Assembly (NCBI RefSeq): GCF_020164495.1
Contig: NZ_JAIQYZ010000001.1
Span: forward strand, 682,001 to 746,000
DNA: 64,000 nucleotides
Direction of reading: 5' to 3'
From: Psychroflexus lacisalsi
GTDB taxonomy: Bacteria > Bacteroidota > Bacteroidia > Flavobacteriales > Flavobacteriaceae
Numbering within the stretch: the stretch's first letter is position 1; the number at the start of each line of letters is the position of its first letter. Below are positions 14,859 through 28,101 of the stretch, one piece after another. Both the position numbers and the translations under genes were made by a program. Under the pieces are notes generated by a model. That model saw only the letters and a list, made by a program, of their open reading frames with translations. It had not been told where the DNA came from and made no database searches.

Positions 14859-15641
14859 ATGGATTCCAGTATATTACTTAACATAAAAAATCAAGTCGCT
14901 TACATTAAATTCAATAGACCCAATAAATTCAACAGTTTTAATCGTGAGATGGCTTTTGCTTTGCAAAAAACACTAGATGATTGTATTCGAAATGATGAGG
15001 TGAGGGCTATAGTTCTAACCGGTGAAAGCAAAGCCTTTTGCGCTGGTCAGGACATACAAGAAATAACAGACCCGGAACAACATCCAGGGTTTAAGCAAAT
15101 CTTAGAAGACCATTACAATCCGATCATTACCAGAATTCGAAATATCGAAAAGCCAGTCATTGCCGCTGTGAATGGTGTTGCAGCTGGAGCAGGAGCAAAT
15201 ATTGCTTTGGCTTGTGATATCGTTGTTGCCAACGAACAAGCTAGTTTTATACAGGCTTTTTCAAAAATTGGATTAATACCAGATTCGGCTGGGACCTTCT
15301 TTTTGCCGAGGTTAATCGGTTTTCAAAGAGCTTCCGCTTTAGCTATGCTAGGCGACAAAGTGGACGCCGTAGAGGCAGAACGTATGGGTATGATTTATAA
15401 ATATTTTTCAGCAGAAACTTATGCAGAAGAAGTAGTGAAGCTAGCTGAGAAACTCGCTAAAATGCCAACCAAAGCTTTAGCTTATACCAAAAAAGCGCTG
15501 AACAAGTCCTTTAATAATTCACTCGAAGAACAACTGGCTTTAGAATCTGAATACCAAATCGCCTCCGCCAATACAGAAGATTATGAAGAAGGCGTTTCCG
15601 CATTTATGGAGAAAAGGGAACCGAAGTTTAAAGGGAAGTAA
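14859..15641 (+). CDS. paaG: 1,2-epoxyphenylacetyl-CoA isomerase (enoyl-CoA hydratase family)
   Basis: A 260-residue crotonase-fold enzyme that opens the epoxide to the seven-membered oxepin-CoA and later isomerises a double bond. KAFCAGQDIQEI (oxyanion-hole block one), NGVAAGAGANIALACDIVVA (block two) and FSKIGLIPDSAGTFFLPRLI (with the PaaG-type catalytic Asp in PDSAG) are diagnostic. Length is normal. It lies downstream of the hairpin-containing gap after paaD, and the next gene is a four-helix-bundle protein rather than paaH. Confidence 0.95.
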   Translation: MDSSILLNIKNQVAYIKFNRPNKFNSFNREMAFALQKTLDDCIRNDEVRAIVLTGESKAFCAGQDIQEITDPEQHPGFKQILEDHYNPIITRIRNIEKPVIAAVNGVAAGAGANIALACDIVVANEQASFIQAFSKIGLIPDSAGTFFLPRLIGFQRASALAMLGDKVDAVEAERMGMIYKYFSAETYAEEVVKLAEKLAKMPTKALAYTKKALNKSFNNSLEEQLALESEYQIASANTEDYEEGVSAFMEKREPKFKGK

Positions 15642-16146
15642 ATACAGAATACTGAATAACGAATTTTTAAAATAACAGCATCAATTAATTAAAATGGCTA
15701 AGTACAAATATGATATTGAAAATCAGTTGATTAGTTTTTCAATTCAGATTATACTTGTTTGTGGTAGCATTAATAAATCCTTTGCTACCGAGCATTTGGC
15801 TAAACAATTAATTAGATTGACAACTTCAGCTGCTTTGAATTACGGAGAGGCTCAAAGTGCTCAATCTCCAAGAGATTTTCTTCATAAGATGCGTTTGTGT
15901 TTAAAAGAATTAAGAGAATCGTTGGTAAATCTTAAAATACAAAAAGTGGCTAATCTGATTAAAGACTTAAATAAATTAGATGATTTGATTGTTGAAAATA
16001 ATCAGTTGATAGCTATTTTCGTAACAAGTATTAAAACTTCAGAACAAAAAATAAATGAGAATTTTTCATTCAAAAACTAATTATAACATTAAACTGGAGG
16101 GTTAAAACTTCATAATTCAGTATTAATCATTCGATATTCAATATTT
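15640..16146 (+). mobile_element. Putative repeat-bracketed S23 cassette 1 (between paaG and paaH)
   Basis: A 507-base unit separates paaG from paaH. The left flank, 15640-15670, begins AAATACAGAATACTGAATAA. The right flank, 16111-16146, read on the minus strand begins AAATATTGAATATCGAATGA. The two agree at 21 of 31 positions in inverted orientation, with the common pattern AAATAnnGAATAnnGAAT. The cassette carries one S23-type gene at 15694-16080. No transposase or target duplication was recognised, so mobility is inferred only from the pattern shared by four such cassettes. Confidence 0.45.
15694..16080 (+). CDS. Four-helix-bundle protein (S23/IVP family), copy 1
   Basis: A 128-residue all-alpha protein of the 23S rRNA-intervening-sequence (S23, TIGR02436-like) family. 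The pattern LAKQLIRLTTSAALNYGEAQ, then SAQSPRDFLHKMRLCLKELR with ESLVNLKI, is the classic signature of one subgroup. Copy 4 at 27725 belongs to the same subgroup, while copies 2 and 3 belong to another. No catalytic motif is known; family members form pentameric bundles, and the related Avd protein helps retroelement reverse transcriptases. No reverse transcriptase is present here. It has nothing obvious to do with phenylacetate breakdown. Confidence 0.85.
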   Translation: MAKYKYDIENQLISFSIQIILVCGSINKSFATEHLAKQLIRLTTSAALNYGEAQSAQSPRDFLHKMRLCLKELRESLVNLKIQKVANLIKDLNKLDDLIVENNQLIAIFVTSIKTSEQKINENFSFKN

Positions 16147-16152
16147 ACAACT

Positions 16153-17325
16153 ATGAAAGTAGCAATAATAGGAAGCGGAACCATGGGAAGCGGCATAGCT
16201 CAAGTTGCAGCTACTGCAGGGTGCACGGTGAAACTTTACGACACAAAAACAGAAGCGCTGGAGAAAGCCAAACAAGCTTTGGAAAAAATTCTCAGTCGGT
16301 TGATTGAAAAAGGGAGAATTGATGACAAAGAAAAAAACCGGATTCAGTCTAATATCACTTACGTAGCACGGTTAAAAGCGCTTGCTGATGCAGATCTGAC
16401 AATTGAAGCCATTGTTGAAAATCTGGAAGTCAAGCAAAAGGTGTTTCAGGAAATCGAAAGTTATCAAAGTGATGAAGCGATAATAGCCAGTAATACGTCT
16501 TCATTATCGATTGCATCCATTGCATCAGCTTTGGAGAAGCCAGAGCGATGTATTGGTGTTCACTTTTTTAATCCAGCCCCTTTAATGCCTTTGGTCGAAA
16601 TCGTGCCAGCGGTACAAACGTCACAGCAAGTTTTTGATAAGGTGTTTTCTACCATTGAAAGCTGGAAGAAAGTACCAGTGAAGGCTAAAGATACCCCAGG
16701 ATTTATAGTTAATAGAGTGGCTCGGCCATTTTATGGAGAAGCCCTTAGAATTTATGAAGAAAGCTTTGCGGGATTGCCAGAAGGAGAGGCCGGTTTTGCA
16801 ACGATAGACTGGGCGATGAAGGAATTTGGAGGATTTAAAATGGGACCATTTCAATTGATGGATTTCATTGGTAATGATGTCAATTACACCGTCACTGAAA
16901 CTGTTTTTGAAGCTTTTTACTATGACCCGCGTTACAAACCTTCCTTTACTCAGAAGCGTTTTGCGGAGGCTGGCTATTTAGGGCGAAAGTCTGGAAAAGG
17001 ATTTTATGATTATAGTGAAACTGCCATAAAAGTGGCGCCAATAAAAGATCAGGACATGGGTAAGAAAATTTTCGATCGTGTGTTAGTTATGTTAATCAAT
17101 GAAGCTGCAGATGCCTTGTTTTTGAATATTGCTACTGCAAAAGATATTGATTTGGCCATGACCAAAGGCGTTAACTATCCAAAAGGACTTTTGAAATGGG
17201 CTAATGAAAAAGGAATTGATTGGTGTGTAGAACAAATGGACCAGCTTTATGATATTTACCGGGAAGACCGATATAGATGTAGTCCGTTGCTAAGGAAAAT
17301 GAAGGAAAAAGGGGGTAGGTTTTAG
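16153..17325 (+). CDS. paaH: 3-hydroxyacyl-CoA dehydrogenase (PaaH-type)
   Basis: A 390-residue NAD-dependent dehydrogenase that oxidises 3-hydroxyadipyl-CoA to 3-oxoadipyl-CoA in the lower phenylacetate pathway. AIIGSGTMGSGIAQVAATAG at residues 4-23 is the Rossmann motif. H137 in GVHFFNPAPLMPLVEI is the catalytic histidine, and IASNTSSLSI precedes it. Two C-terminal helical domains follow (FGGFKMGPFQLMDFIGNDVN; the second around KGVNYPKGLLKWANEKG). It is shorter than the E. coli PaaH. The final codons run into the TAGG-rich repeat of cassette 2. Confidence 0.93.
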   Translation: MKVAIIGSGTMGSGIAQVAATAGCTVKLYDTKTEALEKAKQALEKILSRLIEKGRIDDKEKNRIQSNITYVARLKALADADLTIEAIVENLEVKQKVFQEIESYQSDEAIIASNTSSLSIASIASALEKPERCIGVHFFNPAPLMPLVEIVPAVQTSQQVFDKVFSTIESWKKVPVKAKDTPGFIVNRVARPFYGEALRIYEESFAGLPEGEAGFATIDWAMKEFGGFKMGPFQLMDFIGNDVNYTVTETVFEAFYYDPRYKPSFTQKRFAEAGYLGRKSGKGFYDYSETAIKVAPIKDQDMGKKIFDRVLVMLINEAADALFLNIATAKDIDLAMTKGVNYPKGLLKWANEKGIDWCVEQMDQLYDIYREDRYRCSPLLRKMKEKGGRF

Positions 17326-17800
17326 GTAATGGGTGTTAGGTAGTAGGTAGTAGGAAAAAATAGTTAAGAAATGAAGGAGTCCAAGTATCATTTTAAATTT
17401 GAGGATTTTAAAGTTTATCAAAAAGCAATGGATTTTGGAGAAGTTGTTAATCAACAGACAAAAGATTTTCCGAAAGACGAGCGATTCGAATTGACTTCCC
17501 AATATAGAAGAGCTGCGGACTCTATTGCTTTTAACTTAGCAGAGGGTTCTGCAGGAAAAGATAAACAATTTCTCAATTATCTTGGTAATGCTTATCACAG
17601 CATACACGAGTGTGTTGCTTGCAGCGCAAAAGCAGCTCGAAGAAATTATATTAGTCAAGAAGTGAATGAAGCAAATCGAGAATACTTAGTTGAAATGGCA
17701 AAAATGATAAGCAGCTTACGCGCTATAATTTCTAAAAGAATTAGTAAATAACAATTAAAACTTAATACCTAGACCCTATGCCCAACAACCTAATACCTAG
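17311..17800 (+). mobile_element. Putative repeat-bracketed S23 cassette 2 (between paaH and paaI)
   Basis: The left flank (17311-17354) is built of TTAGGTAATGGGTGTTAGGT followed by two AGTAGGT-like units. The right flank (17761-17800) read on the minus strand gives CTAGGTATTAGGTTGTTGGG and then a further TAGGTATTA unit, so the same motif occurs at both ends in inverted orientation. The gene between is an S23-type gene on the plus strand. The left flank overlaps the last codons of paaH and the right flank abuts paaI. The repeat type differs completely from those of cassettes 1, 3 and 4. Confidence 0.5.
17371..17751 (+). CDS. Four-helix-bundle protein (S23/IVP family), copy 2
   Basis: A 126-residue all-alpha protein. 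YHFKFEDFKVYQKAMDFGEV, then FPKDERFELTSQYRRAADSI and AFNLAEGSAGKDK with NYLGNAYHSIHECV, is the most widespread S23-family signature in Bacteroidota. It is clearly homologous to copy 3 at 25304 (shared YQKA, SQ-RAADSIA, LAEGSA, ECVA, RNYI blocks) and more distant from copies 1 and 4. Function is unknown. It interrupts the paaH-paaI order in the same direction as the operon. Confidence 0.88.
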   Translation: MKESKYHFKFEDFKVYQKAMDFGEVVNQQTKDFPKDERFELTSQYRRAADSIAFNLAEGSAGKDKQFLNYLGNAYHSIHECVACSAKAARRNYISQEVNEANREYLVEMAKMISSLRAIISKRISK

Positions 17801-17804
17801 TAAG

Positions 17805-18194
17805 ATGCTCTCCCAAGATCCCTTCAGCACCTGGCTGGGAATTGAGATTTTGGAAGTGAGTTTAGGTAAGTGCAAAGTGGGTTTAACGATAAGACCTGAG
17901 ATGCTGAATTCCATGAAAAAAGCTCATGGTGGCATTACCTACGCTTTGGCAGATACAGCTTTTGGGTTTGCAGCTAATACTCATGGAAAATATGCGGTGT
18001 CTATCGAGACGTCAATAAATCATATTGAAGCTTTGGGAGAAGGAGATTATATCACCGCAGAATCGAGTGTGGAAGTGACCAAAAATAAACTTGGTTTTCA
18101 TGTCGTTGAGGTAAAAAAAGAAGACCAGTTAGTGGCGCTTTTTAAAGGAGTGGTGTACAGAACTTCAAAAGAGTGGAACTTAAATGACGACTAA
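17805..18194 (+). CDS. paaI: Hotdog-fold hydroxyphenylacetyl-CoA thioesterase PaaI
   Basis: A 129-residue hotdog thioesterase that hydrolyses stalled CoA intermediates and recycles CoA in the pathway. MLNSMKKAHGGITYALADTA (the HGG-xx-xxLAD block with catalytic Asp), then GKYAVSIETSINHI and GDYITAESSVEV, are diagnostic. Another in-frame ATG lies 27 bases upstream at 17778, but it sits inside the right repeat of cassette 2, so the ATG at 17805 is preferred; the family begins with a similar segment (LSQDPFSTWLGI). The gap to paaJ contains a GGAAAGCC-type repeat. Confidence 0.93.
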   Translation: MLSQDPFSTWLGIEILEVSLGKCKVGLTIRPEMLNSMKKAHGGITYALADTAFGFAANTHGKYAVSIETSINHIEALGEGDYITAESSVEVTKNKLGFHVVEVKKEDQLVALFKGVVYRTSKEWNLNDD

Positions 18195-18225
18195 AAATAG
18201 TAAATTGAAAACGGATTTGCGTTAA

Positions 18226-18350
18226 GGATTGCAGTGGAAAGCCCGCATGTTTTTGTTGAGCTGAAATAGGTTTGGCATAGCGACTGAAAGAAGCTATTGA
18301 GAAACCTTGTGAAAACCAAGAAAAACAGAGGACTTGAAGCGGAAAGCCTG
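18226..18350. repeat. Direct GGAAAGCC repeats between paaI and paaJ
   Basis: GGATTGCAGTGGAAAGCCCG (18226-18245) and GACTTGAAGCGGAAAGCCTG (18331-18350) agree at 15 of 20 positions, 105 bases apart in the same orientation. The core recurs as GAACGGAAAGCGCG at 30437-30450 and in reverse complement as CGGGCTTTCGGC at 14636-14647. The 187-base gap has no gene. This appears to be the same dispersed intergenic family as the hairpins at 14617 and 30174. Function unknown. Confidence 0.55.
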
Positions 18351-18381
18351 TCAACGCCCAAAAAACAAATATAACTAAACT

Positions 18382-19587
18382 ATGGATGCATACATAATAG
18401 ACGGAATTCGAACGCCAATTGGCAACTACAAAGGAACCTTATCGCCAGTGAGAGCAGATGATTTGGGGGCTTTGGTCATCAAAGAAATTGTGAGCAGAAA
18501 CCCATCGATCCCAAAAGAAGCGTTTGATGATGTGATCTTGGGATGTGCCAATCAGGCTGGTGAAGACAACCGAAACGTTGCTCGAATGTGTTCACTTTTG
18601 GCGGGATTACCACATTCGGTTCCCGGAGAAACTGTGAATCGACTTTGCAGCAGTGGGTTGTCGGCCATTATCCACGCCAACCGAGCGATAAAAGCGGGTG
18701 ATGGTGATTTGTTTATTGCCGGTGGTGTTGAGCACATGACACGTGGTCCTTATGCGATTGCAAAGCCTTCCTCGGCTTACGGTAATGATGCCAAAATGTA
18801 CGATACGAGTTTTGGGTGGCGGTTTGTGAATCCAAAGATGCACGAGCAATATGGAACGGATGGTATGGGTGTGACGGCTGAAAACCTGGTCGATATCCAC
18901 AAAATTTCGCGTGAAGATCAAGATGCTTTTGCTTACCATTCTCAGATGAAAGCCTCGAAAGCTCAGGAAAACGGCCGATTGGACAAAGAAATTGTTGCTG
19001 TCAATATTCCACGTCGAAAGCAGGATGATTTAATTTTTGCTCAGGATGAGTTCGTTAAACCGCAAACTAAATTAGAGATCCTGGGAAAACTTAGGCCTGC
19101 ATTTAGAAAAGATGGCAGCGTGACTGCCGGAAATTCTTCAGGGTTAAATGACGGTGCTGCGGTTACGATTGTCGCTTCTCAAAAGGCAGTTGAAAAGTAT
19201 AATTTGAAGCCTATTGCCAAAATTTTGAGCTCGGCTGTGGTTGGGGTTGAACCAAGAATTATGGGAATTGGTCCAGTTGAAGCGTCTAATAAGGCTTTGG
19301 CAAAAACAGGCTTAACCATGGAAGATATGGACGTGATAGAGCTAAATGAAGCTTTTGCTGCACAATCTCTGGCCTGCATAAGAGCCTGGGGATTGAAAGA
19401 TGATGATCCGAGAATAAATCCAAATGGTGGTGCTATTGCTATTGGTCATCCACTTGGAGTCACTGGAGCAAGATTAGCTTATTCAGCAGCTTTGGAGTTG
19501 AAAATGACCAATAAAAAATATGCATTAGTAACTATGTGTGTAGGAGTTGGGCAAGGTTACGCGGCTGTAATTGAGAATGTGAGTTAA
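18382..19587 (+). CDS. paaJ: 3-oxoadipyl-CoA / 3-oxo-5,6-dehydrosuberyl-CoA thiolase
   Basis: A 401-residue acetyl-CoA acyltransferase that performs the thiolytic cleavages of the lower phenylacetate pathway, giving acetyl-CoA and succinyl-CoA. C89 in [10 protein letters not shown] is the acyl-enzyme cysteine. [19 protein letters not shown] carries the catalytic histidine, and [14 protein letters not shown] the second cysteine. [20 protein letters not shown] and the [10 protein letters not shown] segment match the PcaF/PaaJ subgroup rather than general thiolases. Length is normal. Confidence 0.94.
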
Positions 19588-19613
19588 GAATTGAAGCTTA
19601 TCTAAAATAAATA

Positions 19614-19629
19614 ATTATAAATCATTAGT
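19614..19629 (+). promoter_or_regulatory. Degenerate copy of the paa operator before paaZ
   Basis: ATTATAAATCATTAGT matches 13 of 16 positions of the site before paaF (24486-24501), with an intact right half (ATCATTAGTTT) and a degraded left half. It is directly upstream of paaZ. The -7-like sequence TAGTTTG is one T short of the consensus. It may be a weak internal operator or promoter, or a chance match in AT-rich DNA. Confidence 0.3.
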
Positions 19630-19638
19630 TTGAAGATT

Positions 19639-22149
19639 ATGCAAACCACACAAAGTTATATTAAAGGACAATGGATTCAAGGTAAAGGCGAAAGTCACCC
19701 CATTTATGATTCTATTACAGGAGAACATTTTACCAACATTAATGTTGATGGATTTGATGTTCCTGAAGTTCTGGCTTACGGCCGAGAAAAGGGAGAAACT
19801 CTCCGAAAAATGACTTTTCAGGAACGCGGAAACATGCTAAAATCTTTGGCGTTTTATCTTCAGAAAAAGAAAAAGGCCTTTTATGAATTGAGTTATCGTA
19901 CGGGAGCAACGAAAATGGATTCGTGGTTTGATATTGATGGTGGTTTTGGAAACTTATTTGCTAATGCTTCTTTAAGAAAATTATTCCCTAATCAACCTTT
20001 TGATGTGGAAGGTGATCCTATTGATTTGTCTCGCGGTGGCCGATTTATGGCGCATCATATTTTAGTGCCCAAAGAAGGGGTTGCGGTACATATCAATGCC
20101 TTTAACTTTCCTGTGTGGGGAATGTTGGAAAAATGCGCGGTCAATTGGATGGCTGGAGTTCCAGCAGTGGTTTTGCCAGCTCCGCAGTCGGCGTATTTAA
20201 CTGAAGCGGTAGTCAAAGAAATCATAGCTTCAGGAATTTTGCCAGAAGGTGCTTTGCAGTTGATTTCAGGAACTGAAAAAACCATTTTGGATAGTGTCGA
20301 ATCACAGGATATCGTCACATTTACAGGTTCTGCCGCAACTGGCCGAATGCTCAAGAATCATCCGCGATTGCTTGAAGAATCCGTTCCATTTACCATGGAG
20401 GCAGACTCTTTGAATGCTTGTATTTTGGGAGAAGATGCCGTTCCAGGAACCCCGGAATTTGATTTATTCATCAGAGAAGTTAGAAACGAGATGACGGTGA
20501 AATGCGGTCAGAAATGTACGGCCATACGAAGAGCGATTGTCCCCGAGTCTCTCATTGAGGATGTTCAGATTGCCTTAGGAAAAGCTTTAGATAAAGTCAC
20601 ATTGGGAGATCCAAGATTGAAGGAAGTCCGAATGGGAAGTTTGATTGACAAGCAACAGGTGGAATCCGTTAAAAAAGCGGTTGGCGAGATTTCTAAAACT
20701 GCTGAAATTGTTTATGGAGATTTTAATGCAGTTGAAACGATCAATGCTGTTTTTGAAAAAGGAGCTTTTATCAAACCAATTTTGATGCGTGAAAATGAGC
20801 CTTTCAAAAATGAAGCAGCTCACATTACCGAAGCATTTGGCCCTGTGAGTACTTTAATGCCATATAGAAATTTAGAAGAAGCAATTCAACTTTCTAAAAA
20901 AGGAAGAGGGTCATTGGTGAGTTCAATCTTCACTAACGATGATCGGATTGCCACTGAATATACCATCAAAGCAGCGTCTCATCACGGAAGGATTATGTCC
21001 ATTAATCGGGAATCCGCTAAGCAAAGTACTGGTCATGGTGCGCCTCTGCCAAACCTAGTTCATGGTGGTCCTGGACGAGCAGGGGGTGGTGAAGAGATGG
21101 GTGGAAAACGCGGTATTAAACACTTTATGCAGCGTTGTGCAATTCAAGGAAGCCCTACGACTTTGACCGAAATCACTGGAATCTATCAGCCAAAAGCAAA
21201 ATACAAAGAAGCAGAAAAGCATCCCTTCGCCTACCATTGGGAAGACATTCAGCCAGGGATGTCGTTGAAAACGCATAATCGTACTTTGACGGATACGGAT
21301 ATCATTAATTTCGGTAATTTAACCTGGGATCACTTTTATGCCCACACAGATATTACTTCTTTGGAAGGAAGCATTTTTGAGCAGCGTACAGCTCATGGTT
21401 ATTTCATAATTTCAGCGGCAGCTGGATTATTTGTGTATCCAAATAAAGGTCCTGTGGCGGCCAACTATGGTTTAGAAGAAATTCGATTTTTGAGACCCCT
21501 GTATCACAACGATACTATAAATGTCCGATTAACCTGCAAAGAAAAAGTAGACAGAGATCAAAAAGGAAAAGAATTACCAAGCGGGATTGTGAAATGGTAC
21601 GTGGAGGTATTTGATGTGGAAGCTGTTGAAGAAGAGGATAAACTGGTGGCGATTGCCACTATCTTGACCATGGTTCAGAAGAAACAAGATACTTTTCATG
21701 AAGTGGATAAAGAATTTATTGAAAATAAGTTAGAATTACTTTCAGAAAATAATCAGCCTGAACGGGGGATGATGACGCCTCAACACATGGTAGAGCATTT
21801 AGAAATGAGTTTAAAAATAGCTATAGGAGAAATTTCAGATTTTGAAGTCGCTACCCCAGACGAATATATTGAGCAAGTACAGGAAACTTTATATAACTAC
21901 GAAAAGATGCCCCAAGGCTATAAAATGCCATTGATTAAAAAAGATGAGCTCGAAGACTTGAAGCATGATAATCTTGAAGCGGCAAAAAGTGCTTTATTAG
22001 AAGCTTACGAAACTTTTGAAGTTTATTTTAGAGATCGTCCGGAAGCGATCACTAAAAATGCTGTGTTTGGTGAACTGACAAGTTTTGAATGGAAACTTTT
22101 AAATAGAAAGCATTTTAATCACCACTTTGAGCAGTTTGGGTTGATTTAA
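19639..22149 (+). CDS. paaZ: Bifunctional oxepin-CoA hydrolase / 3-oxo-5,6-dehydrosuberyl-CoA semialdehyde dehydrogenase with C-terminal extension
   Basis: An 836-residue fusion enzyme that opens oxepin-CoA and oxidises the resulting aldehyde. Residues 1-515 are the aldehyde dehydrogenase, with catalytic C293 in VKCGQKCTAIRR. Residues about 525-680 are the MaoC-like hydratase, with D564 and H569 in WDHFYAHTD; these align with Asp561/His566 of E. coli PaaZ. The E. coli enzyme ends near residue 681, whereas this one continues for about 150 residues. The extra part (MMTPQHMVEHLEMSL... LNRKHFNHHFEQFGLI) looks like a DinB/DUF1569-type helical domain. The ATG at 19639 was preferred to the TTG nine bases upstream. 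Confidence 0.94.
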   Translation: MQTTQSYIKGQWIQGKGESHPIYDSITGEHFTNINVDGFDVPEVLAYGREKGETLRKMTFQERGNMLKSLAFYLQKKKKAFYELSYRTGATKMDSWFDIDGGFGNLFANASLRKLFPNQPFDVEGDPIDLSRGGRFMAHHILVPKEGVAVHINAFNFPVWGMLEKCAVNWMAGVPAVVLPAPQSAYLTEAVVKEIIASGILPEGALQLISGTEKTILDSVESQDIVTFTGSAATGRMLKNHPRLLEESVPFTMEADSLNACILGEDAVPGTPEFDLFIREVRNEMTVKCGQKCTAIRRAIVPESLIEDVQIALGKALDKVTLGDPRLKEVRMGSLIDKQQVESVKKAVGEISKTAEIVYGDFNAVETINAVFEKGAFIKPILMRENEPFKNEAAHITEAFGPVSTLMPYRNLEEAIQLSKKGRGSLVSSIFTNDDRIATEYTIKAASHHGRIMSINRESAKQSTGHGAPLPNLVHGGPGRAGGGEEMGGKRGIKHFMQRCAIQGSPTTLTEITGIYQPKAKYKEAEKHPFAYHWEDIQPGMSLKTHNRTLTDTDIINFGNLTWDHFYAHTDITSLEGSIFEQRTAHGYFIISAAAGLFVYPNKGPVAANYGLEEIRFLRPLYHNDTINVRLTCKEKVDRDQKGKELPSGIVKWYVEVFDVEAVEEEDKLVAIATILTMVQKKQDTFHEVDKEFIENKLELLSENNQPERGMMTPQHMVEHLEMSLKIAIGEISDFEVATPDEYIEQVQETLYNYEKMPQGYKMPLIKKDELEDLKHDNLEAAKSALLEAYETFEVYFRDRPEAITKNAVFGELTSFEWKLLNRKHFNHHFEQFGLI

Positions 22150-22166
22150 AGTTTTTTATAAAATAT

Positions 22167-22811
22167 TCAGTTGCCAAACTTAAAAATAAAACCAAGACTG
22201 AGATTCATTAAATGTGTACGCCCAAACAAGTCGTCAGCTTGGGAGGGCCTCTCGATATTGGCATTGGTTGTAAGGTAATTTGCCCTAAAACTTAAATTAA
22301 ATGTTTTAGTAAACTCATAAATTAAATAGGCTCCTGTTCTCCACTCATCAGTAGAATATCGACCTCTTCGAGTACTTCTTGTGAATTGTCTGACATAGTT
22401 AGCTCCATATCCAAGTGAAATTCCTGCATTGAAGTTATTGGTTTTTAAAATTTCATAGTTGAGCTGTGCAAAATATGTCCTGTAGGTAGATCTTTCAAAG
22501 TTGCCAGCTAAAGAAGCATCTGTAAGACTTGATCTAAAACTTGAGTATTCAATTCCTAGATTAAATTTACGATAGTTGAGTAAATTCATATACAATCCAA
22601 ATCCTAGAGCACTCTGCTCATAGGCTTGGTTCAAAAAATGTTCTCCAAAAAATGTAGGATTGAACAACTGGATTTCTCCGTAAAACTTAAATTCTACAAC
22701 AGACTTCTGACTTGAATATTTTTCAGCTTCATCTTCAGTTAAGTTTTGAGCATATGTACATCCAAATGCAAAAAATACCGATATGAGAATTAAAGTTTTA
22801 ATATTTCTCAT
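22167..22811 (-). CDS. Outer-membrane beta-barrel family protein
   Basis: A 214-residue exported protein with a signal peptide (residues 1-21, ending FGCTYAQ). It then has a series of amphipathic strands alternating aromatic and polar residues (KFNLGIEYSSF, YRTYFAQLNYEI, FNAGISLGYGANYV, TFNLSFRANYLTT) and ends in FGN after SLGFIFKF. This is consistent with a small porin-like outer-membrane beta-barrel. No close family is recognised. It lies two bases from a frameshifted lipoprotein gene on the same strand, so the pair was probably an operon inserted between the two plus-strand paa blocks. Confidence 0.6.
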   Translation of the reverse strand: MRNIKTLILISVFFAFGCTYAQNLTEDEAEKYSSQKSVVEFKFYGEIQLFNPTFFGEHFLNQAYEQSALGFGLYMNLLNYRKFNLGIEYSSFRSSLTDASLAGNFERSTYRTYFAQLNYEILKTNNFNAGISLGYGANYVRQFTRSTRRGRYSTDEWRTGAYLIYEFTKTFNLSFRANYLTTNANIERPSQADDLFGRTHLMNLSLGFIFKFGN

Positions 22812-22813
22812 AT

Positions 22814-23520
22814 TTAAGGATTCTGAATTATAAACTCTAAATTTTCGTTGCCAACGTCTATTGCAATTCTGTCTTCAAAGATTTCATCACTGCTCAACTC
22901 TTTTAATTTATAGTTGATAAAAAGCGTTTGGTTTTCCTTGACTCTGAAACTATCTGAAAATTTAAATCTGATAGGATTTTCAAAAGCATCTACTGTAAGA
23001 ATTCTGTAGGCTATTTCTCCTTCAAAAAAGTATTCCAATAATTCAAATCCGTGTATGTTATCCCTGATATTTAAAAAGACAAGTTCCGAACTATTGAGTA
23101 ACTTGATTTGTTGAAGTTGTAAATAGTTATTTGAAAAGTCATCTTCTTCAATCAATATGACCGATCGTTCTTTTTCTCTGTGTTGGTCACTAAGTTCTAA
23201 ATAAAAACGTGCACCTGTTGAATTTCGACCTCTCTTTGAAGGAGGAAAGTTAAGGACTACACGACCTTGAGAATCGGTTTCTCCAAAACTGATGAGATCA
23301 CCTCTATTGTTTCCTGAACCAAAAATCAGGCCTTTGTTAGCTTCCAAATAAGAGCTGGGTAGTTCTAAACCTCCAGAATAAGCTTCAGCTGATATACTTT
23401 CCAGCTGCATCGCATCACCATCAGTAATTTGAGCTTCTAAAGTAAATCTTGAATTTAAATTGTATCTTATATCACAAACAAAGTGATTACTAATAGTAAA
23501 ATTAAAATTGTGACTCTCAT
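22814..23520 (-). pseudogene. Exported lipoprotein gene, frameshifted after the signal peptide
   Basis: An ATG at 23520-23518 starts a clear signal peptide (MRVTILILLLVITLFVI) that stops almost at once. The next frame over continues without interruption as FVCDIRYNLNSRFTLEAQ and then a long beta-rich domain (LEANKGLIFGSGNNRGDLIS onward) to the stop at 22814. The frames meet near 23473-23485 at a short A-run (80-82 in 23480-23482). One extra base there would join them into a lipoprotein with a cysteine just after the hydrophobic segment. The only ATG in the second frame is at 23410, inside the conserved-looking domain. A frameshift mutation or sequencing error explains this best. Function is unknown. 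Confidence 0.65.
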
Positions 23521-23600
23521 TTAAGGTAGTTTAAATAATTCAAAACCATTTCAACTTTACAGGTGTTTTTCTCGTTACTGGGGCTTTTTAAAGCTATTGT

Positions 23601-24416
23601 TTAATCTTTCATATAGAAGACGTAAAACATCATTTCACCAGGGTAGGACACATCGTCTTTGCGGGGACTTCTAAACTTAGATTCATCCAAAACCTCTACT
23701 ATATTTTTTTCAAAAATAGTATCAAGCTTTGAGTTGCCAGAATTTGATACTATTTTAGTTATTGTGTCATCTTTACTATAAAGAATTTTAACTTCATAAA
23801 AATTCATTCCTGGATTTAAAAAGGTGTTTATTTGATCAGGATCAATTTTATTAAAAAGAAAGTTTAGCATATAGTCAGTGTAAATATTAAATGCTTTTTC
23901 TTCATCTTCATACTTGCAATAAATATCAATACTTGGATAAATCCTTTCGTTGCCTGAATAATCATTTTTATCAGTTACTTTACTCATCTTATGATTAGCT
24001 TTTACACCAGTTGCATTTGTTTTAATTACCACTGGCAAGTTAATGGTAGCATTAACAGGTTCACCTTCTTGAATACCAGGATCTATTATTTTAAGTTTAC
24101 CTAATGTTTTTTCAAATTCCTTTTTAATGACAGGATTATTAGAATTTAAATGAACTAAATGAAAAGATTTATTTTTTTGGACTTCAAATGTCAGATTGAA
24201 CTTGTTTATTCCAGGTTTTAATTCACTATTAAACCTAGTGCTTAAACCTCGTCTAAACAAATTTGAAACCTTTTCCGAAAAACAATTTTTCAACTCCATA
24301 TTTCCCAATACATTTTTGCAGCCCTTAGCAATTATATAGGTTTCATTGGATTCTTGAGAATAAGAAGAAGCAGACACAAGTAAAAACACAAACAATAATA
24401 ATTGGATGTTTTTCAT
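23601..24416 (-). CDS. Exported protein of unknown function, TonB C-terminal-like
   Basis: A 271-residue protein with a clear signal peptide (KNIQLLLFVFLLVSASSYSQ). After it comes a segment with two cysteines (AKGCKNVLGNMELKNCFSEK) and beta-rich stretches. The pattern of a cysteine-containing helix followed by NKFNLTFEVQKNKSFHLVHL resembles the repeated TonB C-terminal-like domains of flavobacterial energy-transducer proteins, but no N-terminal membrane anchor or proline-rich linker is present. It lies between the two paa blocks, divergent from paaF, and the operator/promoter at 24475 lies in the shared upstream region. Confidence 0.6.
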   Translation of the reverse strand: MKNIQLLLFVFLLVSASSYSQESNETYIIAKGCKNVLGNMELKNCFSEKVSNLFRRGLSTRFNSELKPGINKFNLTFEVQKNKSFHLVHLNSNNPVIKKEFEKTLGKLKIIDPGIQEGEPVNATINLPVVIKTNATGVKANHKMSKVTDKNDYSGNERIYPSIDIYCKYEDEEKAFNIYTDYMLNFLFNKIDPDQINTFLNPGMNFYEVKILYSKDDTITKIVSNSGNSKLDTIFEKNIVEVLDESKFRSPRKDDVSYPGEMMFYVFYMKD

Positions 24417-24474
24417 TTTTAAAGTTTAAAAATATTAGATTATGTGTAAAACTACTAAATTTAAAATAATCCAA

Positions 24475-24505
24475 TTGTGAATGATACTAACAATCATTAG
24501 TTTTG
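24475..24505 (+). promoter_or_regulatory. Promoter with overlapping palindromic operator before paaF
   Basis: TTG (24475-24477), 20 bases, then TAGTTTTG (24498-24505) fit the Bacteroidota promoter TTG-N19-TAnnTTTG closely. The palindrome ACTAACAATCATTAGT (24486-24501) lies across the -7 box. It differs at one position from the core before paaE (ACTAACAATCGTTAGT). paaF starts at 24540. The arrangement fits repression by a TetR-type PaaR released by phenylacetyl-CoA. Confidence 0.75.
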
Positions 24506-24539
24506 AATTTAACCGAAAACGATTTAGAAAATACATCAA

Positions 24540-25292
24540 ATGACTAAACCATACGTAAAAAAAGATATTAAAGATAAAATTGCAACGATAGAATTTTTTC
24601 ATCCTGCACATAATTCTTTGCCAAGTGACATCCTAGCTCAATTAGCTGATATCATTACAGAAGTAGGCCAAAATGAAGACGTTTTAGTGGTGGTCTTAAA
24701 ATCTGGAGGAGAACGTACTTTTTGTGCCGGGGCCAGCTTTAAGGAATTGATTTCCATTGAAGACGAAAAAACCGGGGAGCAATTTTTTAGTGGTTTTGCC
24801 AATGTGATCAATGCGATGCGCAAATGCCCAAAGTTTATTATTGGGCGTGTTCAAGGTAAAACTGTTGGAGGTGGAGTAGGACTCGCATCTTCTATGGATT
24901 ATTGCATGGCGACGAAATATGCTGCTATTAAATTGAGTGAATTGAATCTTGGGATTGGTCCTTTTGTTGTTGGACCAGCCGTCGAACGGAAACTTGGTGT
25001 TAGTGGCATGTCCCAAATCGCCATTGATGCGAATTCATTTTATTCAGCTGAATGGGCTAAGGATAAGGGTTTGTTTGCGAGTGTTTATGATTCAACAGAA
25101 GATCTTGATATCGCTGTAGCTGAATTTGCTAAAAACTTATGTGAATATAATCCTGAAGCTGTGAAACATATGAAACAAATGTTTTGGCGAGGCACAGAAG
25201 ATTGGGATGAGTTGTTGAAAGAACGTGCAAAAATCAGTGGAAAATTAGTGCTGAGTTCTTTTACAAAAGAGAAGTTGAAGAGGTTTAAATAG
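24540..25292 (+). CDS. paaF: Enoyl-CoA hydratase/isomerase family protein (PaaF-type)
   Basis: A 250-residue crotonase-fold enzyme. RTFCAGASFKELISIED is the first oxyanion-hole block. GRVQGKTVGGGVGLASSMDY is the second, and LSELNLGIGPFVVGPAVERK holds the active-site region, with Glu in the LSELN position. The pathway otherwise lacks a 2,3-dehydroadipyl-CoA hydratase, and the gene is under the same operator as paaE, so a PaaF role is likely. The sequence alone would also allow a methylglutaconyl-CoA-type hydratase. Its stop sits at the edge of the repeat of cassette 3. Confidence 0.75.
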   Translation: MTKPYVKKDIKDKIATIEFFHPAHNSLPSDILAQLADIITEVGQNEDVLVVVLKSGGERTFCAGASFKELISIEDEKTGEQFFSGFANVINAMRKCPKFIIGRVQGKTVGGGVGLASSMDYCMATKYAAIKLSELNLGIGPFVVGPAVERKLGVSGMSQIAIDANSFYSAEWAKDKGLFASVYDSTEDLDIAVAEFAKNLCEYNPEAVKHMKQMFWRGTEDWDELLKERAKISGKLVLSSFTKEKLKRFK

Positions 25293-25697
25293 AGGTGAGT
25301 GATATGAAAAGTGACTATTATTTTAAATTTGAAGTTTTAAAACTTTATCAAAAAGCGATAGAATTTGGTGAACAGATAAATTCTCAAACAGAAAATTTTC
25401 CAAGTCACGAAACATATAAATTAAGTTCACAATTTTCACGAGCGGCAGATTCTATTGCATTAAATATCGCAGAAGGTTCAGCTATTACTGATGCAAATTT
25501 CGTTGGGCATTTAAAAATGGCTTGGGATAGTTGTTATGAATGTGTTGCAGCTTCAACAAAAACTAGACTAAGAAATTATATCACTTTTAAAGTTGATGAG
25601 CAGAACAGAAGGCATATCACTGAAATATCAAAAATGATTTCAGCTCTCATCAAGCATCTTAAAAATAAACCACAGTTTAATATGAAAACTCACCTCT
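25291..25697 (+). mobile_element. Putative repeat-bracketed S23 cassette 3 (between paaF and paaY)
   Basis: AGAGGTGAGT at 25291-25300 and its exact reverse complement ACTCACCTCT at 25688-25697 enclose an S23-type gene. The left copy begins within the paaF stop region and the right copy ends 22 bases before the paaY start. The ten-base match is perfect, and the right copy continues TCAC, a further partial unit. The 3' end of the S23 gene runs through the right repeat. Confidence 0.5.
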
Positions 25698-25723
25698 CAC
25701 TACTAATAAACTGTTCTTTATGA
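25304..25723 (+). CDS. Four-helix-bundle protein (S23/IVP family), copy 3
   Basis: A 139-residue all-alpha protein of the same subgroup as copy 2. It shows YYFKFEVLKLYQKAIEFGEQ, LSSQFSRAADSIALNIAEGS, WDSCYECVAASTKTRLRNYI and the late helix ISKMISALIKHLKNK. The last 15 residues (after NKPQF) are encoded by the right inverted repeat and have no family counterpart, so the original stop was probably lost. The stop overlaps the paaY start by four bases (ATGA). A GTG nine bases upstream is a possible alternative start but lies in the left repeat. Function unknown. Confidence 0.86.
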   Translation: MKSDYYFKFEVLKLYQKAIEFGEQINSQTENFPSHETYKLSSQFSRAADSIALNIAEGSAITDANFVGHLKMAWDSCYECVAASTKTRLRNYITFKVDEQNRRHITEISKMISALIKHLKNKPQFNMKTHLSLLINCSL

Positions 25724-26319
25724 TCTACAAATTTAAAAACCATACACCAGTCGTACACGAAACTAGTTTTGTTCATCCATTGGCTGCAGTAACAGGTAAC
25801 GTTATTATTGGCAAGGATTGTTACATTGGGCCTGGAGCAGCGATACGCGGGGATTGGGGAGAGATTATTTTGGAAGATGGTGTGAATGTGCAGGAGAATT
25901 GTACAGTGCACATGTTTCCAGGTAAAAGCATAACTTTAAAAAAAGGAGCTCACGTAGGCCATGGAGCTATTATTCATGGGGCAAATCTAGGCGAAAATTG
26001 CCTTGTCGGTATGAATTCAGTAATTATGGACGATGCTGAAATTGGCGACGAATGCATCATTGGTGCTTTGGCGTTTGTAAAAGCGGAAACTAAAATTCCC
26101 AAGCGAAGTTTAGTGGTTGGGAATCCTGGAAAAATCATCAAACAAGTTTCAGATGAAATGATTGCCTGGAAAACCGCAGGGACACGATTGTATCAGCAGT
26201 TACCAACAGATTGTCATGAGAGTTTGAAAGAAGTTCAACCTTTGAGAGAAATCCCAGACAATAGACCTGAACAGGAAAATTTTTATAAAACATTGAAAGA
26301 ATTTAAGGGTAAAAAATAA
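25720..26319 (+). CDS. paaY: PaaY, gamma-carbonic-anhydrase-fold protein (hexapeptide repeat)
   Basis: A 199-residue left-handed beta-helix protein. It shows VHETSFVHPLAAVTGNVIIG, GPGAAIRGDWGEIILEDGVN, the metal-site stretch VHMFPGKSITLKKGAHVGHG, and AIIHGANLGENCLVGMNSVI. Three histidines (in TVHMF, HVGHG and IIHGA) fit the zinc site of this family. PaaY is a thioesterase-like accessory protein in some phenylacetate clusters, acting on ring-hydroxylated CoA esters. Length is normal. It follows the S23 cassette 3 gene with a four-base overlap and precedes the E2 gene after a short repeat tract. Confidence 0.9.
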   Translation: MIYKFKNHTPVVHETSFVHPLAAVTGNVIIGKDCYIGPGAAIRGDWGEIILEDGVNVQENCTVHMFPGKSITLKKGAHVGHGAIIHGANLGENCLVGMNSVIMDDAEIGDECIIGALAFVKAETKIPKRSLVVGNPGKIIKQVSDEMIAWKTAGTRLYQQLPTDCHESLKEVQPLREIPDNRPEQENFYKTLKEFKGKK

Positions 26320-26323
26320 TTGC

Positions 26324-26356
26324 GACTTAGAAAGTAGAAAATTAGAAGCTAGATTG
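26324..26356 (+). repeat. TAGAA-type tandem repeat tract between paaY and the E2 gene
   Basis: The gap holds GACTTAGAAAGTAGAAAATT followed by AGAAGCTAGATTG, an irregular tandem of units ending in TAGAA. This is the same style of short degenerate tandem as the flanks of the S23 cassettes, but without a gene. It is listed as a probable relic or target of that system. Confidence 0.45.
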
Positions 26357-26364
26357 AAAAAATT

Positions 26365-27690
26365 ATGAGTGAAAAAGCTACAGAGTTTAAACTTCCTAAA
26401 ATGGGAGAAAGTATTACTGAAGGAACTATTCTGAACTGGATGATGAGCGAAGGAGATATTTTTCAAGAAGGTGATATTTTAGTAGAAGTAGGGACAGATA
26501 AAGTGGACAATGAAGTACCTGCCCCATTTTCTGGGAGACTTATCGAGAAGAAGTATCAAGCCAATGAAATAGTTAAAATTGGTGAAGCAATTGCAATAAT
26601 TGAAGCCATAGATGAAGAGGAATCAAATTCAGAAGTAAAGACTAAAAAGGAAATTAAACCAGAAGTAAAAAAAGCTTCAACAACAAACTCTCAACCAGAA
26701 AAACCAAAATCACAACTTAGTAAAACATCAAAAAATGTTTCTAAAGTAGAGTGGAAGCCAAGTGATAGAGGAAATCAGTTTTATTCTCCGTTAGTTGAAA
26801 AAATTGCCAGAAATTACCACATCAGTTATGAGGAATTAGCGAGAATTCCAGCTTCTGGAGCTAACAACCGACTCAAAAAATCTGATATTTTTAATTACAT
26901 AGAACAAGGCAGGCCCGCCCAGTTTGCTCAACCTGAATCAACACAAAAACCCTCTGGATTTCAAGTTCCCGATTTAAAATTTAATAAGGGAGAAGGGAAG
27001 CGAATTGAAATGGACAGGATGCGACAAATGATTGCTGACCATATGGTGTTTTCAAAACACACTTCACCTCACGTCACTGCTTATGTAGAAGCAGATTTGA
27101 CCAATTTGGTTAACTGGAGAAACAAGAATAAGGTGAAATTTCAGAAGGAAAACGGTGAGAAACTGACGTTTACGCCACTTTTTATTCAGGCGGTGACCAA
27201 AGCGATTCAGGATTTCCCTATGATCAATTCGTCTTTGGATGGAAACGAGATCATTGTGAAAGATAACATTCATATCGGTATAGCTACTGCTTTGCCTAGC
27301 GGAAATTTGATTGTTCCTGTAGTAAGAAATTCAGATCAAAAAGACCTAAAAACTTTAGCGAAAGATGTTAATGGTTTAGTCGCAAAAGCTCGAGATAACA
27401 AATTAACTAGCGAAGAAACCAAAGGCAGTACGTTTACGATTTCAAACGTGGGTACTTTCGGAAGTTTGATGGGAACTCCAATTATCAATCAACCGGAAGC
27501 AGCGATTTTAGCAACGGGAATTATCAAAAAACGGGCTGAGGTCATCGAATACGAAGACGGCGATAAAATAGAAATCCGACAAATGATGTATTTGTCACTC
27601 TCCTTCGATCATCGGATTGTAGATGGATTTTTAGCCGGAAGTTTTCTGAGAAGGATAGCGGATTATTTGGAGGAAGAGATTAAGAATTAA
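26365..27690 (+). CDS. 2-oxoacid dehydrogenase E2 component (dihydrolipoamide acyltransferase)
   Basis: A 441-residue acyltransferase of a 2-oxoacid dehydrogenase complex. The N-terminal lipoyl domain has FKLPKMGESITEGTILNWMM and the lipoylated K46 in GTDKVDNEVP. A charged linker (residues about 90-135) and an E1/E3-binding domain (FYSPLVEKIARNYHISYEEL) follow. The C-terminal catalytic domain carries H416 and D420 in SFDHRIVDG. It is of the BCKDH type rather than the pyruvate type by overall layout. It belongs to the paaF transcription unit with the fused E1 at 28107; no E3 is nearby. Placement suggests it makes an acyl-CoA feeding the paa pathway. Confidence 0.92.
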   Translation: MSEKATEFKLPKMGESITEGTILNWMMSEGDIFQEGDILVEVGTDKVDNEVPAPFSGRLIEKKYQANEIVKIGEAIAIIEAIDEEESNSEVKTKKEIKPEVKKASTTNSQPEKPKSQLSKTSKNVSKVEWKPSDRGNQFYSPLVEKIARNYHISYEELARIPASGANNRLKKSDIFNYIEQGRPAQFAQPESTQKPSGFQVPDLKFNKGEGKRIEMDRMRQMIADHMVFSKHTSPHVTAYVEADLTNLVNWRNKNKVKFQKENGEKLTFTPLFIQAVTKAIQDFPMINSSLDGNEIIVKDNIHIGIATALPSGNLIVPVVRNSDQKDLKTLAKDVNGLVAKARDNKLTSEETKGSTFTISNVGTFGSLMGTPIINQPEAAILATGIIKKRAEVIEYEDGDKIEIRQMMYLSLSFDHRIVDGFLAGSFLRRIADYLEEEIKN

Positions 27691-28101
27691 AAATTTTAAA
27701 TCATCAAAACTTAACTATTCTGTAATGAAGTCAAACATAGTTAAAGATAAAAGCTTTGAGTTTTCTCTTAAAATTATCTTGCTATTCAAGACAATGCAGG
27801 ATCAAAAAGGATACATAATTTCAAAACAGATTCTTCGATGCGGGACAAGTATAGGAGTCAACATCGCAGAGTCTGAGGCAGCACAAAGTAGAAGCGATTT
27901 TGTACAGAAGTTGTCAATTGCATCTAAAGAAGCAAGAGAAACTATTTACTGGCTTCAACTTCTGGATAAAAGTGAATTGGTTGATGTTGAAGTGAATACT
28001 CGTATTGATGACTGCAATGAGATTATTCGCTTGTTGACTTCAATTATTAAAACAATCAAATCTAAATTATGAATTAAAAATTCATAATTAAAAATTCATA
28101 A
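27685..28101 (+). mobile_element. Putative repeat-bracketed S23 cassette 4 (between E2 and E1)
   Basis: The left edge holds AATTAAAAATTTTAAATCAT (27687-27706), and the right edge holds AATTATGAAT (28065-28074) and ATTCATAATT (28080-28089), a perfect 10-base palindrome with a five-base loop, then a further AAAAATTCAT unit. Both sides share AATTAAAAATT. The S23 gene at 27725-28072 lies between, and its stop codon is inside the right palindrome. The repeat type is distinct from cassettes 1-3 but similar to the tract inside E1 at 28517. Confidence 0.4.
27725..28072 (+). CDS. Four-helix-bundle protein (S23/IVP family), copy 4
   Basis: A 115-residue all-alpha protein of the same subgroup as copy 1. 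It shows ISKQILRCGTSIGVNIAESE, AAQSRSDFVQKLSIASKEAR and ETIYWLQLLDKSEL, then a final helix (CNEIIRLLTSIIKTIKSKL). SIGVNIAES with the SDF-x5-IA-KE pattern is diagnostic. It separates the E2 and E1 genes of one enzyme complex, which are normally adjacent. Function unknown; no catalytic residues are recognised. Confidence 0.88.
   Translation: MKSNIVKDKSFEFSLKIILLFKTMQDQKGYIISKQILRCGTSIGVNIAESEAAQSRSDFVQKLSIASKEARETIYWLQLLDKSELVDVEVNTRIDDCNEIIRLLTSIIKTIKSKL

Follow-up and report, generated by a model that had tools for sequence, protein, structure and literature searches.

Intervening sequences (IVSs) that encode S23/IVP proteins occur in the 23S rRNA of Leptospira and other bacteria. S23 proteins are widespread under the name 'four helix bundle protein', and we know of no function for them outside rRNA IVSs and the Avd proteins of diversity-generating retroelements (DGRs). 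For Coxiella, an IVS is reported that has a 28-bp terminal stem and, before the S23 open reading frame (ORF), heptameric repeats whose number varies between strains; this IVS is cut by RNase III in vitro, its S23 ORF is in reductive evolution and the RNA is argued to matter more (PMC4990558). Here, we analyzed a 64,000-nucleotide (nt) stretch of the Psychroflexus lacisalsi genome (the window), in which four S23 genes lie between the cistrons of a paa gene cluster, each with its own flanking repeats, and compared them to S23 loci of the genus, family, order and other phyla. The general architecture is a cassette of a 7-nt repeat arm, an S23 ORF and a second, usually reverse-complementary arm, placed in the sense direction between two cistrons.

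The comparison suggests that rRNA-type 'intervening sequences' also occur in the mRNAs of many bacterial phyla. We lean slightly toward the view that one-gene S23 cassettes with 7-nt arms in intercistronic gaps are the mRNA counterpart of S23-encoding 23S rRNA IVSs. The two share the protein family, stem-forming inverted ends and heptads (Coxiella and Azospirillum), whereas an IVS lies in 23S rRNA and the cassettes described here lie between mRNA cistrons with their arms abutting stop and start codons. Because the window copies sit between protein genes and not in 23S rRNA, and RNase III cutting is a prediction, we class the cassettes as working like rRNA IVSs, not as members of that class. 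The architecture, period, inverted symmetry, orientation and stop-codon register of the loci, like the turnover and empty sites of the paa gaps and the purifying selection on S23, were computed directly. Sense orientation, intercistronic place and private, often complementary heptad arms together form a genomic grammar that gives S23 a testable job and connects rRNA IVSs with the orphan S23 genes of paa and CRISPR operons and with heptanucleotide arrays known for a long time. Among the open-licence papers listed by our literature searches, none was found that describes heptad arms beside S23 genes other than those in rRNA.

Heptad arms at S23 loci

Two sets of S23 loci were assembled. The genus-to-order set held 140 loci, made up of 40 loci plus 100 further stretches picked among the matches listed; some are orthologues of each other, and L008 and L011 represent a single gene. 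For the cross-phylum set, one query was run against genome contigs and the best 80 of the 582 stretches confirmed were kept, so that the set is biased to that S23 subfamily; its record titles name Bacteroidota, Cloacimonadota, Clostridia, Desulfobacterota, Nitrospirota, Acidobacteria, Planctomycetes, Patescibacteria, Atribacterota and others. Flanks were taken as 100 nt on each side and neighbours as the longest ORFs of at least 100 amino acids (aa), with guessed start codons. One locus per set was too short for the flank test and was dropped, leaving 139 and 79.

In the 140 loci, the flank autocorrelation excess was 0.101, 0.083, 0.064 and 0.045 at lags 7, 14, 21 and 28, respectively, and at most 0.029 (lag 8) elsewhere. 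At lag 7, the control value was 0.011 for 32 other gaps of the window. It was 0.022 for 47 gaps lying farther away in the same loci and 0.001 for 163 gaps from 400 kb of the P. lacisalsi genome. The 80 cross-phylum loci gave 0.112, 0.090, 0.066 and 0.035 at the same four lags. Left and right flanks were reverse-complementary above the 99% shuffle level at 62 of 139 genus-to-order loci (between-locus pairs, 2.2%) and at 52 of 79 cross-phylum loci (between-locus, 4.2%). By class, the 139 loci comprised 51 with inverted arms, 11 with both inverted and direct, 29 with direct only and 48 with neither; the corresponding cross-phylum numbers were 44, 8, 7 and 20. Because matches are frequent within and rare between loci, the arm motif is private to its locus and often, but not always, inverted. 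An earlier reading of the window from its letters alone (the original prediction) had asked whether S23 flanks are always inverted repeats of variable family; privacy and inversion were indeed found at many loci, but 77 of 139 are direct only or unclassifiable.

Loci of two other one-gene families behaved differently. Thirty GxxExxY loci had a weaker period of 8–9 nt and more sharing between loci, and 30 GIY-YIG loci had none at 7 nt; on these grounds, they were taken as separate cassette kinds. A scan of 400 kb of the P. lacisalsi genome for intergenic arrays gave 12 with a period of 7 or 8 and none with a period of 6, 9 or 10. Eleven of them lie at most 6.6 kb from an S23 place, in two clusters, and two lie within 300 nt of one. 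As judged by these distances, arrays accompany S23 neighbourhoods yet also stand alone. The region at 273.4–280 kb of contig C1 of the P. lacisalsi genome (G000; L358, 13400–20000), near one S23 gene, contains long intergenic stretches in which heptad and octad arrays are mixed and S23 is absent.

Arm positions were measured at 92 loci selected because their inverted match was good. Left arms begin a median of 2.5 nt past the upstream stop (interquartile range −4 to 11), and a median of 10.5 nt separates the end of the right arm from the next start. TAG is the upstream stop codon at 70 of 124 loci, compared to 65 of 320 ORFs of the P. lacisalsi genome (p = 6e-13), and S23's own stop is TAG in 24 of the 140 genus-to-order loci. 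Across phyla, TAG accounts for 26 of 68 upstream stops versus 13 of 79 of S23's own (p = 0.005). In the 70 TAG loci, the letters A and G recur at +5/+6, +12/+13, +19/+20 and +26/+27 (45–64%); in 46 TAA loci, no 7-nt recurrence of the stop-codon letters was found. The 7-nt identity extends ~14 nt into the upstream gene. This register may reflect arms seeded by the end of the host gene or arms that overwrite it.

Both neighbours lie on the S23 strand at 128 of 138 loci, both are opposite at 6, and 4 are divergent and 0 convergent; for ORFs of the P. lacisalsi genome, both neighbours are co-directional in 194 of 318 cases and convergent in 49 of 318. In the cross-phylum set, the counts are 63 with both on the S23 strand, 4 with both opposite, 3 divergent, 3 convergent and 7 lacking a neighbour. 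The S23 genes are under purifying selection, with dN/dS of 0.03–0.26 (median 0.09) in 59 pairs; the first 80 pairs of 70–96% identity at any site had been tried, and the other 21 yielded no usable value. The proteins are mostly basic (median pI 8.9, 74% above 8; 201 intact of 220). The Bacteroidota-type promoter has the consensus TTG-N17-21-TANNTTTG; none of the 140 sequences upstream of S23, each at most 100 nt long, matched this consensus, compared to 3 of 700 shuffles, a comparison that tells little about a promoter of S23's own.

The four window copies and their gaps in relatives

The original prediction of four sense-strand S23 genes between cistrons was borne out, as four plus-strand ORFs matched both PF05635 and TIGR02436 (S23/IVP, four helix bundle family) above the curated cut-offs:

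15694–16080, + strand: S23 copy 1, between paaG and paaH; 128 aa; pI 9.1; PF05635 34.9 bits, TIGR02436 61 bits
17371–17751, + strand: S23 copy 2, between paaH and paaI; 126 aa; pI 9.0; PF05635 91.6 bits, TIGR02436 83.1 bits
25301–25723 (GTG at 25295), + strand: S23 copy 3; 140 aa from the ATG; PF05635 80.7 bits, TIGR02436 80.9 bits
27725–28072, + strand: S23 copy 4, between the E2 and E1 genes; 115 aa; pI 8.9; PF05635 88.8 bits, TIGR02436 106.5 bits

The gene order also agreed: PaaG-[S23]-PaaH-[S23]-PaaI and enoyl-CoA hydratase-[S23]-PaaY-E2-[S23]-E1, where E2 and E1 belong to a 2-oxoacid dehydrogenase. Neighbours were named by best NCBIfam hits, most of them below the curated cut-offs; PaaH denotes a PaaH-type dehydrogenase, and the gene predicted as PaaF is by this measure just an enoyl-CoA hydratase (paaF below). 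The proposed protein subgroups were recovered, with 53% identity between copies 2 and 3 and 33% between copies 1 and 4, compared to 19–29% for the remaining pairs. A profile of the S23 alignment identified the solved structures 2gsc and 2rld as relatives (E = 8e-34 and 1e-25). The P. lacisalsi genome (3.04 Mb, 53 contigs) gave 11 S23 matches, which represent 10 genes, one being split into two hits; four of these genes lie inside a 12.4-kb part of the window, a non-random clustering (p = 6e-8, uniform draw).

As claimed, each copy has its own repeat type. The flanking repeats are as follows:

15648–15670, + strand: copy 1 left arm (GAATACT-type); inverted match to 16102–16124, score 31, 0 of 2,000 shuffles
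16102–16124, + strand: copy 1 right arm, inverted match; more ATTCGATATTCAATATT units follow as far as the paaH start
17318–17354, + strand: copy 2 left heptad arm (NNNNTAG units), which includes the final paaH codon and its TAG stop
17764–17800, + strand: copy 2 right heptad arm, spanning the ATG and running into codons 1–8 of paaI
25292–25306, + strand: copy 3 left arm (GAGGTGAGTGATATG), from the sequence; related motif by eye in genomes G008 and G021
25689–25703, + strand: copy 3 right arm (CTCACCTCTCACTAC), from the sequence; related motif by eye in relatives
27685–27701, + strand: copy 4 left flank repeat (AT-rich); inverted match p = 0.27, not above chance
28073–28089, + strand: copy 4 right flank repeat; not above chance

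The claim of inverted flanks at each copy held in part. Against 2,000 dinucleotide shuffles, the inverted match was clear for copy 1 (p < 0.0005), and copies 2, 3 and 4 gave p = 0.10, 0.05 and 0.27, respectively. For copy 2, the local inverted match lies at 17337–17354, a related motif was seen by eye in five relatives and the first residues of PaaI, MPNNLIPS, are encoded by the right arm; in its predicted fold, a long stem pairs the 3′ end of paaH, final codons and stop included, with the initial codons of paaI (z = −3.4; 0 of 100 shuffles equal). The best-scoring inverted match of copy 3 differs from its GAGGTGA motif; this copy overlaps the paaY start, and its right arm is translated as part of its C-terminal extension. 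In whole-cassette folds, the expected number of arm–arm pairs was 19.1 for copy 1, 22.3 for copy 2 and 2.5 for copy 4, with copy 3 outside the test. Inverted symmetry is strong when the locus sets are taken as a whole; among the window copies, complementary, stem-forming ends are clear for copy 1 and in the copy 2 fold but not for copy 4.

The same gaps were then compared among 27 genus genomes, of which the PaaH search matched 24 and the E2 search all 27 (G017 through a 47% paralogue only); the counts cover genomes with both neighbours in view. The paaG–paaH gap holds S23 in 11 of 16 genomes, and the other 5 gaps measure 2, 2, 12, 73 and 115 nt. The paaH–paaI gap holds S23 in 8 of 17, an S23 remnant (by eye) in 1 and no S23 in 8 (−4 to 107 nt). 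At paaF–paaY, 20 genomes comprise 9 with S23 (two degraded), 5 with a GIY-YIG gene, 5 with gaps of −1 to 6 nt and 1 with a 93-nt gap containing repeats. At E2–E1, 25 genomes comprise 9 with S23, 12 with a GxxExxY gene (one broken), 3 with gaps of 14–51 nt and 1 with a gap of 210 nt. Empty sites often measure −4 to 24 nt from stop to start, their carriers being too diverged for target duplications to be read from the junctions base by base; the GIY-YIG and GxxExxY genes were confirmed by family searches and all S23 hits listed in these gaps run in the operon sense. Broken S23 copies, with stops, frame breaks or truncation, were found in G024, G004, G005, G021 and G010.

Fixed sites in relatives are thus empty or hold S23, GIY-YIG or GxxExxY genes. 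On a PaaH+E2 tree, the fewest state changes were 3 for paaG–paaH, 2 for paaH–paaI, 6 for paaF–paaY and 8 for E2–E1 (16, 17, 20 and 24 genomes, with the G016 remnant, identified by eye, scored as S23 and the 210-nt E2–E1 gap of G015 excluded). The sister pairs G000/G001 and G021/G025 differ at paaF–paaY, with S23 in one and GIY-YIG in the other. Copies 1, 2 and 4 have counterparts with related flanks in the same gap of near relatives; other S23 genes at the same gaps belong to different subfamilies, some at paaG–paaH being only 45–53% identical to copy 1. Judging from these gap contents and tree changes, the paa gaps are slots whose content turns over, some of it persisting by vertical descent and some being replaced. 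This points to intercistronic gaps as places where one unrelated single-gene cassette takes over from another. The original prediction had named findings that would speak against a mobile module. Two were contradicted, as clean empty sites exist and the flanks of other S23 genes are inverted above shuffles, and persistence at the same place applies in part, to copies 1, 2 and 4.

Several further observations concern these gaps. The 73-nt paaG–paaH gap of locus L048 contains a TCTAGAA-like heptad array but no gene and so represents an S23 site with a solo array. The paaI–paaJ gap of the window (18195–18381) is 187 nt without a called gene, and the same gap measures 10–224 nt in 12 relatives. 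At 22167–24416 of the window, three minus-strand ORFs between paaZ and the enoyl-CoA hydratase gene interrupt the co-directional run. The GIY-YIG cassettes in the copy 3 slot (L066, L072, L073, L077 and L084) have one gene and, by eye, hairpin-like ends, and several of the GxxExxY cassettes in the copy 4 slot of 12 genomes (for example, L071 and L080) lie between GCAAAGACGCAAAG-like arrays facing each other. In G025 (contig C1, near 840524–841239; L072), two GIY-YIG matches lie 488 bp apart near paaY with only the last 20 paaF codons beside the gap, an arrangement that may be a tandem duplication of the cassette plus the host 3′ end. Eight GIY-YIG matches stand in tandem at G013:C34:6991-9748, one per ~364 bp.

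Predicted arm pairing, proposed movement and rival explanations

The original prediction had the two flanks pairing in the transcript. As a prediction, this was supported by whole-cassette folds of 102 loci with both gaps of 20–120 nt, using a right flank from another locus as the swapped control. Expected arm–arm pairs were 21.8 with native and 8.3 with swapped arms (p = 5e-20), and 86 of 102 full cassettes reached at least 8 pairs, compared to 69 of 204 swapped ones. From these features we infer how the arms may pair in vivo, how the cassette may be cleaved or looped, what the protein may bind and how the unit may move. The cassette, spanning from just after or including the upstream stop to just before or into the downstream start, would be carried by the host operon transcript, and its arms would pair and loop out the ORF. 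Pairing would bring the upstream stop near the downstream start, which could make the insertion tolerable, and the stem might be an RNase III target, as in rRNA. The basic S23 protein, made from the same transcript, would probably bind the stem or the cassette RNA or DNA. Arms would drift and expand by 7-nt slippage, giving each locus its own motif, and a cassette moving to a new gap would take its arms along.

Movement was assessed by comparing S23 pairs. Among those at least 70% identical and classed as different-site, arms were shared in 21 of 24, compared to ~1% for such pairs below 50% identity. Nine of the 24 miss an upstream ORF in at least one locus, and 12 of the other 15 share arms; at least L234/L240 and L022/L023 turned out to have homologous neighbours despite their class, and for L186/L187, arms are shared and no homologous neighbour was found. 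The arms thus seem to travel with the gene, as related S23 genes with unlike neighbours carry like arms. In 11 of 61 same-site pairs, both arms were significant yet unrelated, which fits re-insertion and joint change alike.

Several results weigh against an mRNA counterpart of the rRNA IVS. In the folds, the antisense strand is no worse than the sense strand (24.6 versus 21.8 pairs), and the sense-strand mispairs in 101 arm alignments comprise 133 G·U versus 225 A·C, with a composition-corrected expectation of 165.5 versus 192.5 (p = 6e-4). Because G·U pairs are fewer than A·C and antisense folds equally well, there is no sign of selection for sense-RNA pairing; the predicted transcript pairing may instead reflect copying between arms at the DNA level or a DNA-binding role. 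Three of the four window copies are individually not clearly above chance for inverted flanks, and the direct-only and neither classes take up 29 and 48 of 139 loci and 7 and 20 of 79 across phyla. The 140-locus set is partly orthologous and so non-independent (225 same-site pairs). With the array threshold applied to the 400 kb, an array was found no more than 300 nt away at only two of the four S23 places, and heptad arrays without S23 exist (the G020 paaG–paaH gap; P. lacisalsi contig C1, ~274–280 kb). The reductive evolution reported for the Coxiella S23 ORF (PMC4990558) argues against the protein having a general role.

These points bear on a rival in which the arrays came first: 7-nt arrays from polymerase slippage or hairpin template switching would be tolerant landing pads for one-gene cassettes, and their inverted symmetry a by-product without RNA function. 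Solo arrays, the 2 of 12 intergenic arrays within 300 nt of S23, the lack of sense-strand G·U bias, an array register that follows the host stop codon and the GIY-YIG and GxxExxY cassettes in the same gaps of relatives all agree with it. Yet 11 of the 12 arrays cluster within ~6.6 kb of S23, 163 other gaps lack the heptad signal and closely related S23 genes beside unlike neighbours have like arms, so that we consider this origin rather unlikely. Clean empty sites, inverted ends and cassettes that keep their arms beside unlike neighbours in related species would also suit a transposon-like DNA element whose arms are terminal inverted repeats, read either by S23 itself or, in trans, by a transposase or recombinase. 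Transposases, however, read ends shared between copies, whereas the ends here are locus-private and vary in length and unit number; between-locus arm similarity was near shuffle level, with sharing mainly at ~70% S23 identity or more. Few antisense and 0 convergent insertions in 138 loci add to the case against such an element, which we judge improbable.

Descent as ordinary small operon genes, with flanks that are low-complexity AT-rich drift, would account for the same-gap relatives of copies 1, 2 and 4 in near species and for purifying selection on S23. It was rejected as the sole account, being very hard to reconcile with empty sites, with sister species whose paaF–paaY gap has had one cassette replaced by another (G000/G001 and G021/G025) and with arms that are periodic and complementary. 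The original prediction had also named Avd, a related four-helix-bundle family, which raises a DGR-like retroelement in which an Avd-like S23 acts with a reverse transcriptase. Copy 2 alone weakly matches the DGR Avd model (23.3 bits, cut-off 80), and no PF00078 (RVT_1) match was found in the P. lacisalsi genome despite its 10 S23 genes or in G004, G005, G024 and G033 with 8–17 S23 matches each, although draft assemblies may miss genes. The hint is thereby weakened, and we rejected this link as extremely improbable.

We slightly favour the mRNA counterpart of rRNA IVSs, which extends the original prediction by the 7-nt periodicity, the stop-codon register, the other cassette types in the slots and the cross-phylum reach; the finding is real and wider than first proposed. 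A bolder version, which we hold to be doubtful, envisages phylum-spanning 'mRNA intervening sequences' whose private heptad arms are seeded at the host stop, which invade gaps and in which pairing restores stop–start proximity; their remains would account for a large share of the heptanucleotide arrays so far unexplained in Bacteroidota and Cyanobacteria, and S23 would be an arm-binding factor driving arm growth or movement.

Plasmid loci, rRNA and other repeat families

Heptanucleotide arrays are known in cyanobacteria as short tandemly repeated repetitive (STRR) sequences, and the P6b repeat units of the Nostoc trnL intron are 7 nt long. The P6b repeats are short degenerate arrays (PMC4476775). 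TAACTGA heptanucleotide repeats lie, in one genome, mostly just ahead of start codons, according to an article in which the terms S23, 23S rRNA and four helix bundle are absent (MacGregor 2015, PMC4679880). Like S23 arms, these arrays are short and degenerate, and their hosts include Bacteroidetes and Cyanobacteria; TCAGTTA, the reverse complement of TAACTGA, is present in arms such as those of L251. Known heptad arrays were checked for S23 flanking at nine cyanobacterial plasmid loci. REP/REPIN-RAYT (repetitive extragenic palindromic) systems likewise place repeat hairpins in intergenic gaps, in association with a small gene family. The REPs of a genome have a common motif, whereas every S23 locus has arms of its own.

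On plasmids, tblastn with copy 2 gave 23 records, 22 of them cyanobacterial, and with copy 4 gave 25. Arms were judged by eye at 10 of the 23 copy 2 records (9 cyanobacterial), as follows. Heptad arrays flank an S23 gene between cas6 and cas4 in Pseudanabaena and in Anabaena 90, where the right side is weak. Short repeated units accompany S23 between cas10 and cmr3 in Picosynechococcus and at loci of Nostoc, Trichormus and Geminocystis, and no repeats were seen at the N. commune HK-02 locus. In N. edaphicum and Calothrix 7716, S23 is opposite to both neighbours. S23 genes thus stand within CRISPR-Cas operons of cyanobacterial plasmids at L255, L259 and L260 (cas6-S23-cas4 and cas10-S23-cmr3).

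The S23 gene of Azospirillum lipoferum AZO_p2 proved to be a 23S rRNA IVS by an Rfam large subunit (LSU) match, with complementary heptad arms on both sides (by eye). Together with the heptameric repeats reported for the Coxiella IVS (PMC4990558), it supports the proposed link to rRNA IVSs. The Rfam scan covered this locus (L264) and 39 of the 80 cross-phylum loci. Riboswitches were seen in three S23-holding loci: flavin mononucleotide (FMN) and tetrahydrofolate (THF) in L279 and S-adenosylhomocysteine (SAH) in L287 and L333.

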